This document shows positions 34,996 through 42,121 of a stretch of 64,000 nucleotides of DNA, piece after piece (within the stretch, counting starts at the first letter, position 1; every line of letters begins with the position of its first letter). The notes under the pieces are model-generated. The model saw only the letters and a list, made by a program, of their open reading frames with translations, did not search any database and was not told the origin of the DNA. Location of the stretch: contig CAMCXS010000008.1 in assembly GCA_945883495.1 (NCBI GenBank), positions 62,001 through 126,000 of the forward strand. The letters are read 5' to 3'. Source of the DNA: Akkermansia muciniphila (lineage in GTDB: Bacteria; Verrucomicrobiota; Verrucomicrobiia; Verrucomicrobiales; DEV007). A program made the translations under genes and the position numbers.

Positions 34996-37071
34996 ATGAA
35001 AGCGTTCTTGCTGCTCCTCTTTGTTTGTTGCGGTTCCCTGGCCGCCGCTGCGAAACCCAACGTCGTCGTCATCCTCTCCGACGACTTCGGCTACGGCAGC
35101 GCCGGGGCCTACGGCGCGGATCCGAACCTCGTGCAAACCCCGAGTCTCGACCGTCTCGCCCGCGAAGGCCGCCGCTTCACGGACGCGAACACCACCTCTT
35201 CCGTCTGCTCCCCCACCCGCTATTCCGTCCTCACCGGCCGCTATTGCTGGCGCACTTCCCTCAAACACGAAGTCCTCAGCACCTTCGCCCCCCTCCACAT
35301 CGAGCCCGGCCGGCTCAACCTGGCTTCCCTGCTCAAAAAGCACGGCTACGCCACCGCCGCCGTCGGCAAATGGCATCTCGGCTACGGCACCGCCGACGAT
35401 TCCCCACAATGGCGCACCGATTACACCAAGGAGCTCTCGCCCGGACCGCTCGATATCGGCTTCGATTACCACTTCTCCGTTCCCAGCAATCACGGCGACC
35501 TCACCGGCGTCTACGTCGAGAACCGCCGCGTCTACGGGCTCGGCAGCCGCGATCTGCCGAACGCCGACGATTACCAGACCACCTACACCGCCGAAGACAT
35601 GGAGAACGCCAAGGGGAAAGGCATCCTCGACCTCGAGGCCCCGCGCCGCAAAAACGTCCGCGTCATGAAGGTCCTCACGGACAAGGCCAGCGATTGGCTC
35701 CGCGCCCAACCCAAAGATCAGCCCTTCTTCCTCTACTTCACCCCCGTCGCCGTCCACAATCCGGTGACGCCGGACACCGATATCGCCAGAAAAAGCAAAG
35801 CCGGCCCGTTTGGCGATTGGATTCACGAACTCGACCGCAGCGTCGGCCGGATTCTGACGACGCTCGATGAAATGGGCGCCACGGAAAACACCCTGGTCAT
35901 CTTCACCAGCGACAACGGTGGGGTCAACCGACCGGAAAACACGAGACTGCTGCAAACCGCCGCCATCCAAGCCGGACTCAAAGTGAACGGTCCCTGGCGT
36001 GGCGGAAAGCACGATGTCTGGGAAGGCGGCTTCCGGGTGCCGTTCCTCGTCCGCTGGCCCGGCCAAGCCCCCGCCGGATCGGTCTCCGGAACCACCGTCA
36101 GCGTCGCCGACATCCTCGCCACCACCGCCGCAATCGTCGGCGAACCGCTCCCCCAGGTCTCCCAAGGCGCCGAGGACAGCCGGAACTTCCTGTCCGCCAT
36201 CCTCGGGGAACCGGAAAAACCGATTCGCGACGACATCATCGTCCACAGCGCCGACGGCGTCTTCGCCATCCGCAAAGGCAAGTGGAAGTGGATCGAGGGC
36301 ATCCCGGTCGATGAAATCAAACCCGCCCTCCGCAAGCTCCACGCCAATCAGTTCCGCTCTCAGCTCTACGACATCGAGGCCGATCCCGCCGAGGCCAAAG
36401 ATCTCAGCGCGGAGCATCCCGATGTCGTCGCCGAGCTGACCGCGCTCTTGAATCGATACCGCTACGGCGGCTACAGCCGGGAACTCCCGCCGGCCGATGT
36501 CCAACCGCCGCAAACGGCCCCCATCACCCTCGCGCCGGTGAAAGGCACCGTTCTCCTCAACGAATCCCTCGCCGCGCTCCCCGCCAAGCCGTGGCAGGCC
36601 GCCGCAGGCACCTGGGAAGCCCGCGATGGCGGACTTTGGGGCAGCCAAACCGGCAAAGAAGACCTAGGCGCCAATCTCCGCGTGCCCTTCGATTTCATGG
36701 ACGGCACACTGGAATGCGATATCAGCTTCCATGGCGCCAACCGCACCTCCTGCCGCATGGAATCCACCAACGGCGAACGCAAAGGAAACTTCCGCATCGA
36801 AATCTCCCGCACCGCCATCGGCCTCACGAAGAATCCCGCCACCGGCGAACCCAAAGAAGCAGTAGAACCGATCGCCCGCCGAGCCATGGAACTCGACGCG
36901 GACAAGTGGTATCCCGTCCGCATCACCTTTCAGGGCAACGAAGCCATCGTCCAAGTCAACGAAACCATCCTCCGCGGCACCCACCCGGTCCTGGGGGAAC
37001 GGAAGACGGGGGCCAATTTCCTCGTCTTCGGAGCCAGCGCCGGGTTCCGCAACGTGCGCTTAGTGCGGTGA
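34996..37071 (+). CDS. secreted sulfatase with C-terminal DUF1080-like (jelly-roll) domain
   Basis: 691 residues. The start at 34996 is chosen because AGGGGA (34983-34988) is well placed and a clean signal peptide follows (MKAFLLLLFVCCGSLAAAA); a longer in-frame extension overlaps the divergent serine hydrolase. Sulfatase signatures: PNVVVILSDDFGYG, Cys71 in SVCSPTRYSVLTGR (formylglycine site), GKWHLGYG and FTSDNGG. Residues about 510-691 form a beta-rich domain (WQAAAGTWEARDGGLWG to the end) like the DUF1080/LamG-type domains attached to planctomycete and verrucomicrobial enzymes, probably for glycan binding. It probably desulfates extracellular polysaccharides. No formylglycine-generating enzyme is present in the window. 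Confidence 0.92.
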   Translation: MKAFLLLLFVCCGSLAAAAKPNVVVILSDDFGYGSAGAYGADPNLVQTPSLDRLAREGRRFTDANTTSSVCSPTRYSVLTGRYCWRTSLKHEVLSTFAPLHIEPGRLNLASLLKKHGYATAAVGKWHLGYGTADDSPQWRTDYTKELSPGPLDIGFDYHFSVPSNHGDLTGVYVENRRVYGLGSRDLPNADDYQTTYTAEDMENAKGKGILDLEAPRRKNVRVMKVLTDKASDWLRAQPKDQPFFLYFTPVAVHNPVTPDTDIARKSKAGPFGDWIHELDRSVGRILTTLDEMGATENTLVIFTSDNGGVNRPENTRLLQTAAIQAGLKVNGPWRGGKHDVWEGGFRVPFLVRWPGQAPAGSVSGTTVSVADILATTAAIVGEPLPQVSQGAEDSRNFLSAILGEPEKPIRDDIIVHSADGVFAIRKGKWKWIEGIPVDEIKPALRKLHANQFRSQLYDIEADPAEAKDLSAEHPDVVAELTALLNRYRYGGYSRELPPADVQPPQTAPITLAPVKGTVLLNESLAALPAKPWQAAAGTWEARDGGLWGSQTGKEDLGANLRVPFDFMDGTLECDISFHGANRTSCRMESTNGERKGNFRIEISRTAIGLTKNPATGEPKEAVEPIARRAMELDADKWYPVRITFQGNEAIVQVNETILRGTHPVLGERKTGANFLVFGASAGFRNVRLVR

Positions 37072-37122
37072 CTGCGTTTGAGGCAATTCGCCGCCGCTGC
37101 GTCCAAGGAAGCAGAACAAGCC

Positions 37123-38334
37123 ATGTCCATCGTCGTCCAAAAGTATGGCGGCTCATCCGTCGCCGATCCGGAGAAACTGCGTGCCGTCGCCCAGCGAGTG
37201 GTGGCCACCAAACACCTCGGCCATTCCGTTGTGGTGGTTGTCTCAGCGATGGGCAAAACCACCGACCAACTCCTCGCCCTCTCCAAACAGATCACGCCAC
37301 AACCGGACCGCCGGGAGCTGGACATGCTGCTCTCCACCGGGGAGCGGATCAGCATGGCCCTCCTCACCATGGCGATCCGGGAGGAAGGCGAGGAAGCCAT
37401 CAGCTTCACCGGCAGCCAGGCCGGCATCATCACCAACGACCGGCACGTGGATGCCCGCATCATCGAAGTGCGCCCCATCCGGGTGCAGGATGAACTCTCC
37501 CGCGGGCGCATCGTGATCGTGGCCGGTTACCAGGGCATGTCCTACAAACGGGAGATCACCTGCCTGGGCCGGGGCGGCAGCGACACCACCGCCGTGGCCC
37601 TGGCGGCCGCGCTCAAGGCGGATTGGTGTGAAATCTGTTCCGACGTCGATGGCGTCTACACCGCGGATCCCCGGATCGTCCCTGAGGCGACCCGGATTCC
37701 CCGGCTTTCCCACGAAGAGACCCAGGAAATGGCCGAATCGGGCGCCAAGGTCCTCAATGCCCAGGCAGTGGAATTCGCCAAACAACACGACATCGCGATT
37801 TACGCCCGCGCCACCTCAGGACCGCTGCCCGGCGAGGATCCCTCCAGCGATGGCACCGTGGTGCAACGCCTTTCACCGGATGCTTCCGGCCTCGTGGTCG
37901 CCGTGGCGGGAGAACGCGGCTTGTTCCTCCTTCGCGGCGAGCTGCCCGAGGCGGGAGCTCTGCTTTCGGCGCTCGATGATGTCGAAGCCAGCGCCAAGCA
38001 GACCCAGATTGTCCGGACAGGAGGCAGTGGTTGGCGGGTGAGCATGGTCTTCGCCAAAGAAAACCTCCACCAAGCCGATGCCGTCCGCCGGATCTTGCGC
38101 GATCAGTTTCAGGAGCGTGCCAGCTTGATCGAAGGCTTCGGCGCCGTCAGTGCCGTGGGCGCCGGGATCAATCAAGATTTCCGGAACACGCATCGAGGCC
38201 AAGAAGCACTCTCCGGATTGGGGATCGAGGAACTCTTCACCTCCAGCCTGCGCAGCAGCTGGATCCTTCCGGATGACCGGGTGGACGAAGCGCAACGCGC
38301 TCTCCACCGCGTCTTCTTCGGCACGGGAAGATAA
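37123..38334 (+). CDS. lysC: aspartate kinase
   Basis: 403 residues from ATG 37123 ([13 protein letters not shown]). A TTG at 37078 would add 15 unusual residues. The amino-acid kinase domain shows KYGGSSV, STGERIS, and [15 protein letters not shown] with the [12 protein letters not shown] segment. The C-terminal third contains tandem ACT-type regulatory segments, expected to bind lysine and/or threonine for feedback control. It catalyses the first step from aspartate to lysine, threonine, methionine and diaminopimelate. It is monofunctional, with no homoserine dehydrogenase domain. It begins 51 bases after the sulfatase on the same strand. Confidence 0.94.
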
Positions 38335-38381
38335 GCTCGCAAGACGGCGGGCTCCAGCCACGTGGCGCGATCGTTGCCCCA

Positions 38382-38987
38382 ATGAAGTCCCTTTCACTTT
38401 TTGGCTCGCTTCTGGTCCTACTTCTGGTCCACCCGGCCGCGACCGCGACCGCGTCCGCGGCTGCCGCCAACCGTCCCCCCAACGTCATCTTCATCCTGAC
38501 CGATGACCAAGGCTGGGCCGATGCGCGCTTTGCCGGGCATCCCTATCTCAAAACGCCCAATCTGGACAAATTCGCCAGTCAGAGCACCTGGATCCGGCAG
38601 TTCTATGTGGCCGCGACGCAAGATCCCGGCGAATCCCGCGATGTGGCCGCGGAACAGCCCGAACTTGTAAAGACCCTCACCGCGAAAGCACTGGCCTGGG
38701 TGGAGACGCTTCCGCCCAGTGAGGCGCGGACCCGGGCGGCGTCCACCGGCAAGCCCCAGGACAACGGCCGCGCCCAGACCGTGCCCGCGGCCGCAGCCAC
38801 AAAGCCGAGTCCAGATCGAGCCACCATTTTCCGGCAGAAGGACTCCAACCACGACGGGCGCCTCTCCCTCGACGAGTATCTGAACCGGTTCCCAGATCAA
38901 GCCGAAGGCCGCCGCCGCTTCCCGACGTTCGACACCGATCAGGATGGCCTGCTGACCGAGGAAGAATTCGTGCGTGCGGGGCGGTGA
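38382..38987 (+). CDS. core-deleted sulfatase derivative with two EF-hands (possible decaying gene)
   Basis: 201 residues with a signal peptide (to about residue 29). Residues 31-77 match the N-terminus of a sulfatase (RPPNVIFILTDDQGWADARF, then KTPNLDKFASQSTWIRQFYVA). Where a normal sulfatase continues with the formylglycine motif, the sequence at residue 78-80 jumps to what looks like a sulfatase C-terminus (TQDPGESRDVAAEQPELV, then LTAKALAWVETLPPSEA). About 350 residues, including the catalytic Cys and most metal ligands, are therefore missing in frame. Two canonical EF-hand loops follow: Asp154-Glu165 (DSNHDGRLSLDE) and Asp184-Glu195 (DTDQDGLLTEEE). It cannot be an active sulfatase. It may be a degenerate gene or a small secreted calcium-binding protein. 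Confidence 0.8.
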   Translation: MKSLSLFGSLLVLLLVHPAATATASAAAANRPPNVIFILTDDQGWADARFAGHPYLKTPNLDKFASQSTWIRQFYVAATQDPGESRDVAAEQPELVKTLTAKALAWVETLPPSEARTRAASTGKPQDNGRAQTVPAAAATKPSPDRATIFRQKDSNHDGRLSLDEYLNRFPDQAEGRRRFPTFDTDQDGLLTEEEFVRAGR

Positions 38988-38995
38988 GCGGAGCA

Positions 38996-39079
38996 CGACG
39001 CTTTGTCGTCGCCATTTCCCTGTTCATGATGATCCGGCTGCGACACAGCGCAGCCCTCCGGTGCGCGACGCTTTGTCGT
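38996..39079. repeat. intergenic hairpin-forming repeats
   Basis: A 14-base direct repeat, CGACGCTTTGTCGT, occurs at 38996-39009 and 39066-39079. Each copy can fold on its own CGAC/GTCG arms. Between them, GGCTGCG (39036-39042) and CGCAGCC (39049-39055) form a perfect 7-base stem. This may act as a transcription end for the upstream gene or be part of a dispersed repeat family. Confidence 0.6.
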
Positions 39080-39145
39080 GGACCGCGAGAACGGTGAGGT
39101 TCGGTTGCCGATCGGACATCCAGGGTGCATGAATCCGCTCCGTCG

Positions 39146-39910
39146 ATGAAACTCGATCGTCTCCTGACCCGTCACCAACGCATGGGCCGCGTGGCCGCGC
39201 GGCGGGTGCTGGCGGCGGGGCGCGTCCGGGTGGATGGCGTGGTGGTCAAAGACCGGGAGCTTGAAGTGGATCGCTTCCGCACGGTGTTTCTTGACGACGT
39301 CATGGTCCAAGGCACGGAGCGCGCCCGCTACCTCATGTGCCACAAACCGGCGGGCATCCTCAGCGCCACCTCGGATCCGGTGCATCGCACGGTGCTCGAC
39401 TTGATCGATGATCCGGGGAAGGAGGAACTCCACCTCGTCGGCCGTTTGGACCGGGCTTCGACGGGCTTGATTCTGCTCACCAATGATGGGCGATGGTCCA
39501 AGCAGATCCTTTCCGCGGAGAGCAAAGTGCCCAAGGTGTATCTGGTGGAAACCGCCGAACCGGTCACGGAGGAATCCATCGCCGCCTTTGCCAACGGCTT
39601 TTGGTTTCCCACGGAGAACGCGTTCACCCTCCCAGCCCAACTGGAAATCCTCGCGGAGCGCACCGCCCGGGTCACCCTGGAGGAAGGGCGGTATCACCAG
39701 ATCAAGCGAATGTTCAAACGCGTGGGCAACCGTGTGGTCACGCTGCACCGGATGCGCATCGGCGGCCTGGAACTGCCGGAGGATCTGCCTGCGGGTGCCT
39801 GGCGCGAGTTGACCGAGGAGGAAAAGAATCTCATCACCCAGCCGCCGAATCCCGGAGACGGATCCTCTCACCCGCGGATCTGCCCGGTCCCGTGCAGCAA
39901 GTATTTGTAA
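39146..39910 (+). CDS. RsuA/RluB-family pseudouridine synthase
   Basis: 254 residues from ATG 39146; a GTG seven codons upstream is also in frame. An N-terminal S4 RNA-binding domain (MKLDRLLTRHQRMGRVAARR) is followed by the pseudouridine synthase domain. The catalytic Asp102 lies in VGRLDRASTGLILLTNDG, and YHQIKRMFKRVGNRVVTLHR is the RsuA-type C-terminal motif. It isomerises uridine in rRNA. Whether the target is 16S U516 (RsuA) or a 23S site (RluB/E/F) cannot be decided from sequence alone. Its last 43 bases overlap the convergent proA. Confidence 0.9.
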   Translation: MKLDRLLTRHQRMGRVAARRVLAAGRVRVDGVVVKDRELEVDRFRTVFLDDVMVQGTERARYLMCHKPAGILSATSDPVHRTVLDLIDDPGKEELHLVGRLDRASTGLILLTNDGRWSKQILSAESKVPKVYLVETAEPVTEESIAAFANGFWFPTENAFTLPAQLEILAERTARVTLEEGRYHQIKRMFKRVGNRVVTLHRMRIGGLELPEDLPAGAWRELTEEEKNLITQPPNPGDGSSHPRICPVPCSKYL

Positions 39911-41127
39911 CTCGTCAGCTCCACCAAACCCATTGGCCCCCGGGCGTGGAGCTTGTCCGTGCTGATCCCAATCTCCGCGCCGAAGCCGAATTCTTCTCCG
40001 TCCGTGAACCGCGTCGAGGCATTCACGTAGACCGTCGCGGAATCGACCTCCGCCAGAAAGCGATTCGCGTTGGCCTCGTCGGCAGTGACGATGCAGTCGC
40101 TGTGACGTGAGCCGTAGGTGTTGATGTGGTCAATCGCCGCGTCCAGGCCAGAAACGACTTTTACCGCCAGGATCAAGTCGAGGTATTCCGTGGTCCAGTC
40201 CTCTTCCGTCGCTTCCTTCAGATCCGGGAAAATGGCGAGAGTCCGCTCGTCGCCGCGCAGTTCCACTCCCCTCTCGCGCAAAGCCGCCGCCACTTGAGGG
40301 AGGAACGTTTCCGCCACGGCTTCGTGGACCAACAGCGTTTCCATGGCGTTGCAGGCGGACGGTTTGGCACACTTCGCGTCGATGCAGATCTCCGTGGCCA
40401 TGGGCAGGCTGGCGGAGGCATCGACGAAGGTGTGGCAGATGCCGTCGTAATGCTTGATCACCGGCATCCGCGCCAGGGAGACCACGGTTTCGATCAGTCC
40501 CTTCCCTCCCCGCGGGATAATCAGATCGAGGTAGGCATCCATCTCCGCGAGATGCCGGACGCTTTCCCGATCGGTAAACGGAACCAGCTGAATGGCGTTC
40601 TCTGGCATTCCGGCTCCTCGCCCGCCCCGGGCCATCGCCGCGGCGATCGCTTGGTTGGAGTGAAACGCCTCGGATCCGCCGCGCAGAATTGTCGCGTTGC
40701 CGCTCTTGAAGCAGAGCACCGCGGCGTCACTGGTCACATTGGGCCGGGATTCGTAGATGATCCCGATGGTCCCGATCGGCACCCGCTTCTTCACGATCCG
40801 GAGTCCATTGGGCCGCGTCCAATCGTCGAGAACCTCCCCCACCGGATCAGGCAAGCCGGCCACCTTGCGCACGCCTCCGGCCATCGCGGCGAGACGCTTT
40901 GGATTGAGCACAAGGCGGTCAATCATCGCGGCGGTCAAGCCCTTGGCCTCGGCGGCGGCGACATCCTTGGCGTTGGCGGCGAGAATCTCCGCGCCTTCGG
41001 CTTCGATTTGATCGGCGATCGCGAGGAGGATGCGGTTCTTGTCCTCGGCGGAAAGCTTGACGAGGTCGAGCGCTGCTTTCTTGGCCTGCTGGCCAAGACG
41101 GAGGATTTCACCTTTGAGATCAGACAT
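39868..41127 (-). CDS. proA: glutamate-5-semialdehyde dehydrogenase
   Basis: 419 residues from ATG 41127 (MSDLKGEILRLGQQAKKAAL), the normal ProA length. A longer in-frame form upstream is not conserved in style. The catalytic Cys259 lies in KPSACNAMETLLVH. IGIIYESRPNVTSDAAVLC and FGFGAEIGISTDKLHARGPMG are ProA hallmarks. It reduces gamma-glutamyl phosphate to glutamate semialdehyde with NADPH in proline synthesis. proB is not in the window. The 3' end overlaps the convergent pseudouridine synthase gene. Confidence 0.96.
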   Translation of the reverse strand: MSDLKGEILRLGQQAKKAALDLVKLSAEDKNRILLAIADQIEAEGAEILAANAKDVAAAEAKGLTAAMIDRLVLNPKRLAAMAGGVRKVAGLPDPVGEVLDDWTRPNGLRIVKKRVPIGTIGIIYESRPNVTSDAAVLCFKSGNATILRGGSEAFHSNQAIAAAMARGGRGAGMPENAIQLVPFTDRESVRHLAEMDAYLDLIIPRGGKGLIETVVSLARMPVIKHYDGICHTFVDASASLPMATEICIDAKCAKPSACNAMETLLVHEAVAETFLPQVAAALRERGVELRGDERTLAIFPDLKEATEEDWTTEYLDLILAVKVVSGLDAAIDHINTYGSRHSDCIVTADEANANRFLAEVDSATVYVNASTRFTDGEEFGFGAEIGISTDKLHARGPMGLVELTSYKYLLHGTGQIRG

Positions 41128-41272
41128 GGTAGCGGCAGGGTAAGTCAGGATCGCGGAGACTTCCGCCGGAAAGTGCCTGGGTATCGCAAGATTTCGGGCA
41201 AGATCCCCATCCCCCACCGTCCACGGACGAAGCGCGCGCGAAGGAGAACCCGCTACGAGGTCTTTCTGTATT

Positions 41273-42121
41273 CTACAGCGTCTCGCCGCAGCAGCGCTTG
41301 TATTTCTCCCCGCTCCCGCAGTGACAAGCATCGTTCCGGCCCACTCGCAGCCATTTCCGGACGGGAGTCTTTTCTCCGACTCCCTCCCAACTGGCGCCCC
41401 ATCGCGCCACCCGGTCCGCCGGGTCGACGATCTCCGGGTGACGGGCCAGGAACTTGGCCGGCGCTTGCGGATCGCGGAAAATCTTGGCCAGTTCTTCCTC
41501 GGTCACGAAGTCGGGATCGATCCGCCTGGTGCGATACAGGTCCGCCAGTTGGGTGGCCAACTCCGGAAGATGCGTCCAGGCGGCGAGCTCGGCAAACGCC
41601 GACCAGGCCGGGAGTGGCGCCGCCGAGTGATCCAAGAGATGATCCCGCAGCATGCGGTCCATGTGCGCTAGGTAGCTGGCCCTCGGCCACTCCCCGCGAA
41701 GCGTCATAATTCCCAACGCCCGATGCAACGCATCCAAAACGTACCACTGAAGCGACTGGCGCAAGGTGGCGTCCGCGACGGCATCACCATCCCCGCAGGC
41801 AAGCGCCACGATGACCTCGGCGGCATCTTCGCTAAGGAAGTCTCCGACGATTTCAAAGGCATCCGCCTCCGCCCAGGAGAGAAAGCCCAGCAAGGGAGCC
41901 AGCGCCGGCTTGTGGCGTTTCGCGGCGAGAATGAAGAACCCGTAGTTCAGCTGCCAAACCTCGCTCTCGGAAAGAATCCACGGATCCTCCGCCGCCACGC
42001 CGAGCACCATCATGAGCCGTTCCCGGACTCCGTCGAAATTTTGCCAGGCGGCCCGCAACGCCATGACTGGCGGCTCTTCGCCCTTGCGCCCCAATTCGTC
42101 GAGGATCTCTTCCACATCCAC
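41273..42121 (-). CDS. DUF1186 protein with C-terminal SEC-C zinc motif
   Basis: 282 residues, mostly helical. The N-terminal two thirds resemble the DUF1186 family. The C-terminus [20 protein letters not shown] is a SEC-C motif with the C-x-C...C-C ligand set that binds zinc, as at the end of SecA. In known proteins this motif mediates protein-protein or ribosome contacts. The function of the family is unknown. The gene stands 145 bases upstream of proA, without an obvious shared operon. Confidence 0.75.

Follow-up and report, generated by a model that had tools for sequence, protein, structure and literature searches.

We explored what kind of gene is represented by a short open reading frame at positions 38382-38987 (+ strand) of the window, the 64,000-nucleotide stretch of DNA that was analysed here. 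This frame codes for 201 amino acids and translates without internal stops (codons at 38382-38984, stop codon at 38985-38987). An earlier note had described it as a signal peptide, the first 47 or so and the last 35 or so residues of a sulfatase and a paired EF-hand, all joined in one frame with about 350 residues missing at a junction near 38610-38620. The note had left two readings side by side, namely that the deletion is young, or that the small secreted protein has been retained, either to bind calcium or as a decoy. Translation and Pfam bear out the proposed architecture, and the three lengths are correct as judged by Pfam and by alignment with homologues. The locus is probably a recently inactivated sulfatase, a young pseudogene left by one in-frame deletion of the core.

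The frame opens with a probable signal peptide of ~29 residues (38382-38468), as indicated by a hydrophobic N-terminus in the translation and by a modelled helix at residues 5-29. It is followed by an N-terminal sulfatase remnant (38478-38618), with residues 33-79 matching positions 1-47 of the 301 positions of the Pfam Sulfatase family PF00884 at 29.7 bits (cut-off 25). A PF00884 search of the whole genome again recovered only positions 1-47 at this locus. The remnant retains the N-terminal strand and the TDDQGW motif, which we take to be the metal-ligand motif of type I sulfatases, and residues T40-W45 are invariant across an 18-row alignment. The deletion junction lies between Thr79 and Gln80 (38618|38619), inside the span foreseen by the note, and is followed by the C-terminal end of the sulfatase domain, which runs from QDPGE to about LPPS (38619-38717) in alignment with 21 homologues. 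The frame ends in an EF-hand pair (38817-38984) with loops DSNHDGRLSLDE and DTDQDGLLTEEE. The EF-hand matches are best over residues 149-166 and 183-199; EF-hand_1 scores 33.4 bits (cut-off 25.4), and EF-hand_7 is likewise above its cut-off. With two canonical 12-residue loops of the DxDxDG type and a paired fold, found by Pfam and in the structural model, this pair is a possible calcium binder. What is missing is the complete catalytic domain. The CxPSR/CxPxR motif, presumably the formylglycine motif of type I (PF00884) sulfatases, is absent from the frame, while all 21 homologues have CSPSR at this site. The SDNG segment (SSDNG being, on our assumption, the second metal-binding segment of these enzymes) also falls in the missing part of the alignment. 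Neither the CxPSR site nor what else makes up the active site survives the deletion, so the product can no longer be a sulfatase.

The full-length relative that the note had asked for was found. Among 95 genomes that include the window's own (G000; 6.46 Mb in 206 contigs), two others, G049 and G033, each have both halves of the frame in one open frame at 62-63% identity, and among the matches listed these are the best foreign matches to both halves. Of 153 loci confirmed in a contig scan, we retained the best 80; these include full-length relatives in bins that carry the labels Verrucomicrobia and Lentisphaerae. From the best matches of three genome and contig searches we extracted 21 homologous frames, 18 of them distinct, leaving aside L012-L018 and weaker matches. 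All 21 are full length (546-592 aa) and bear CSPSR, and 20 keep both EF-hands, the exception being L054, which lacks the second. Downstream of the junction (QDPGESRDVAAEQPELVKTL...), the window gene aligns with the C-terminus of those full-length sulfatases that also match its N-terminal part. Between the two matched halves, 13 close homologues have a computed 355-360 codons (about 1.07 kb) that are absent from the window gene. The loss starts one residue ahead of the catalytic cysteine, the window gene reading FYVAAT|QDPGE. At this point most homologues have FYVAATVCSPSR, followed by about 350 further residues and then by the segment that aligns with QDPGE. As judged from these alignments, both halves derive from one gene and the extent of the loss is as given above; the in-frame deletion of the core claimed by the note thus holds against all 21 homologues. 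Because the full-length homologues have EF-hands as well, the fusion of sulfatase and EF-hands was inherited rather than added, and only the deletion is new.

The surroundings of the frame bear on whether its halves were instead brought together from two different sulfatase genes by a rearrangement. The gene names rsuA, proA, proB, alaS and lysC used here are our own reading of the sequences, and Pfam was run on the window's proteins only. In two genomes of the same genus (G001 and G002), an rsuA-proA pair has alaS beside rsuA and a proB-like gene beside proA. The window's own pair (39146-41139) is 78-79% identical in nucleotides to theirs, and the flanks on both sides differ, with the remnant, an aspartokinase gene and two sulfatases lying on the rsuA side. 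By this comparison of gene order the neighbourhood is rearranged relative to both genomes, which speaks for a chance fusion. Such a fusion is nevertheless highly improbable, as both halves best match the same set of homologues and the missing segment fits in register between their ends. In G000, alaS is split across two contig ends (C5:1-2103, L159, and C142:3-695). The adjoining aspartokinase-like gene (37126-38331) has one match each in G001 and G002, at only 41% identity, and this low value suggested a foreign contig. This idea was dropped, and the contig taken as native, since its proA is 87-89% identical to those of the same-genus genomes. A second aspartokinase copy in G000 (C7:114839-116044) also stands at 41%. 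G000 furthermore has a second proB-proA-like pair, whose proA is 66% identical to that of the window; its contig of 4.9 kb (C182:1-4910, L153) is possibly foreign. Directly 3' of the stop codon there are three hairpins (38985-39090; fold z-score -3.06), among which a 21-nt direct repeat occurs at 38989-39009 and 39059-39079 with 90% identity. These hairpins are not a genome-wide mobile repeat, having one match in G000 and none in G001 and G002 at up to one mismatch. An Rfam search of 36000-42000 gave no match, and a search of 38200-39250 for promoter- or terminator-like sites found none.

The note had proposed a check for short direct repeats at the deletion ends, and this check gave no clear direct-repeat mechanism. 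In the homologues, which are relatives 46-62% identical in protein rather than the ancestral sequence, the exact breakpoints have only 0-2 nt in common, and the longest string common to both breakpoint surroundings (within 60 nt) is 6-11 nt across the 21 homologues. Such short shared strings argue against recombination between long repeats and also against a k-mer collapse in assembly. An 11-mer, ATGTGGCCGCG, does occur once on each side of the junction (at 38605 and 38641), these being its sole copies on the window's + strand, and encodes the similar motifs YVAA and DVAA. It was rejected as the agent of a repeat-mediated deletion since both copies are still present and simple recombination between them would not yield the observed product. 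From the breakpoints, the deletion would rather have arisen by an illegitimate joining of ends.

We also looked for the short form elsewhere. Among the matches listed, it is absent from the genomes of 94 other relatives and from 386 other genomes of the phylum (the 95-genome and 387-genome sets overlap, and both include G000). It is likewise absent from the best 80 of the 153 loci in the contig scan, a scan that may omit records very near the window's own genome. Several candidates were set aside. Continuous matches in G105, G242 and G066 (L146-L148), which covered most of the query, were spurious extensions along full-length sulfatases, and L051 and L044, which had suggestive scan coordinates, proved to be full length (547 and 557 aa). 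In G009, another genome of the family, a frame-split sulfatase on contig C693 (L145, 1862-4131) has its start and its body in different frames and is not a core deletion. Among the papers listed in a literature search, none was on bacterial sulfatases with a deleted core.

That the short form is seen in one draft assembly of 206 contigs, among the genomes examined and the matches listed, is also what would be expected if the true gene were full and the metagenome assembly had skipped the core or joined two strain variants. We consider such an artefact unlikely. A k-mer collapse requires a shared string at both ends, and those in the homologues are short, as described above. Outside this gene, no match to the full-length homologue L010 in the assembly exceeds 48% identity, in the sulfatase core or elsewhere, so that G000 has no second, full copy. 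The frame also lies on a contig of 126 kb with the proA gene of native type already noted.

We next asked how the retained parts have evolved, using a tree and codon tests on 18 rows, namely the window gene and 17 homologues. Homologues L136, L137 and L140 were left out for having the same aligned rows as L045, L048 and L053, and L054 for its tail without the second EF-hand. The terminal branch of the window gene is 0.141 over 163 retained columns, the 13th longest of the 18, and the retained parts are no faster-evolving than those of intact homologues. A codon model written for this analysis gave a background omega of 0.059 and a best value of about 0.02 on the window branch, with no relaxation of selection seen on a branch that spans time before the deletion and carries a large amount of synonymous change. 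An omega of 1 on this branch is rejected (2dlnL 21.7), and the usual level of significance also excludes values from 0.08 upwards (2dlnL 4.0 at 0.08), placing the upper bound just under 0.08. When the 18 terminal branches were fitted singly the others ranged from 0.014 to 0.101, leaving aside L056, for which omega is not meaningful because the fit hit a boundary; the value on the window branch is thus not unusual. By these values, a neutral phase, if there was one, took up little of the branch. Since the branch includes time before the deletion, omega gives no test of the short form itself, and a low value is expected of a gene that was a working enzyme until recently. A low omega is therefore compatible with a gene that is young and dead as well as with one that has been kept, and shows no kept function. 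The open frame is likewise weak evidence for function, since at 1% divergence 86% of neutral copies, and at 5% still 47%, would have acquired no new stop.

These results weigh on the second reading in the note, taken here as a small secreted EF-hand protein that has been kept to bind calcium or to compete with EF-hand tails on intact sulfatases. The open frame, the intact EF-hand loops, a confidently modelled EF-hand fold and a window-branch omega well below 1 all speak for such a protein. An AlphaFold2 model, run on the 18-row alignment, is confident for the EF-hand pair (residues 151-200, pLDDT 93-96), moderate for the helical part from the sulfatase C-terminus (residues 91-120, pLDDT 74-79) and unconfident for the sulfatase remnant (residues 31-90, pLDDT 41-54), with a mean pLDDT of 68.1 and a pTM of 0.34 for the whole. 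Among solved structures, the EF-hand part comes closest to frequenin and hippocalcin-type proteins (E 5.1e-8 and weaker). A kept protein is nonetheless improbable, and slightly more so in the specific form in which it would occupy anchoring sites or calcium used by the EF-hand tails of the full enzymes. The omega value covers time before the deletion and does not probe the short form, neutral copies are often free of stops, and no second genome has the short form among the matches listed. A kept protein would also have retained a sulfatase N-terminus that is unconfidently folded in the model, although with so shallow an alignment its low pLDDT is no proof of disorder. If true, this would be a new secreted protein born by subtraction.

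We consider the young pseudogene the best explanation, and the assembly error and the kept protein both less likely. The occurrence in one genome only, the lack of a change in rate and the open frame together favour the young deletion among the note's two readings. The alternative of a protein kept to bind calcium or to act as a decoy is not supported, as the searches listed the short form in no further genome and the EF-hands come from the full-length sulfatase. The ancestral gene would have been a normal secreted sulfatase with a C-terminal EF-hand pair, from which a single recent deletion would have taken 355-360 codons with CxPSR and the rest of the active site. The breakpoints would share a frame by chance, such that the frame still reads through. 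From these observations we infer that the deletion is recent and that the product has no function. As is typical of a pseudogene, there are longer intact relatives (all 21 homologues are full length) and the functional part is lost. Also in favour of this reading are the lack of another full copy in G000, the unconfident fold of the sulfatase remnant, further damaged sulfatases in this genome and the rearranged neighbourhood. Counter to this are a frame that is open throughout and intact EF-hand loops, and the low omega also counts against the pseudogene in so far as a kept protein would show it too.

The locus most likely reflects gene decay of a common sort, in a genome rich in sulfatases. 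G000 has 66 PF00884 match rows, several of which are pieces of one gene, corresponding to an estimated sixty or so genes. At least two other sulfatases in this genome are damaged, indicating that sulfatase loss is not peculiar to this locus. One, at C26:60565-60864 (L042 1560-1865, - strand), is truncated to 101 codons that include CTPSR and is followed by another gene, whereas frames of 530-670 aa prevail among its best relatives. A second, at C4:164497-165918 (L149 1456-2955, - strand), is broken into three frames with a TGA inside one match. The window gene illustrates cleanly how a gene decays in a lineage rich in sulfatases, its in-frame loss being exactly placed and starting just ahead of the catalytic cysteine. 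It also carries a warning for annotation, since a domain scan taken alone would assign the frame to the sulfatases or to the EF-hand proteins.

That sulfatase and EF-hand domains are fused in Verrucomicrobiae is itself already published (PMC7016017). Compared with full-length verrucomicrobial sulfatases that end in an EF-hand pair, such as L010, L047 and L051, the window gene shares the 47 N-terminal sulfatase residues at 66-89% identity and the C-terminal part with its EF-hands at 41-64% identity, and it lacks the 355-360 codons that contain CSPSR and the remainder of the active site. Of the solved structures, those nearest to L010 are the N-acetylgalactosamine-6-sulfatase 7stt (E 9.4e-54) and the k-carrageenan sulfatase S1_16 9fo1 (E 2.1e-53), and these matches span the core that is lost in the window gene and end at about residue 459 of L010, ahead of the EF-hands. 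In bacterial pseudogenes an internal deletion may leave the two ends of a gene. The window gene shares with such pseudogenes the retained gene ends, full-length relatives, occurrence in a single genome and loss of the catalytic part. It differs from them in that its frame is preserved, and for this reason it still looks like a gene.
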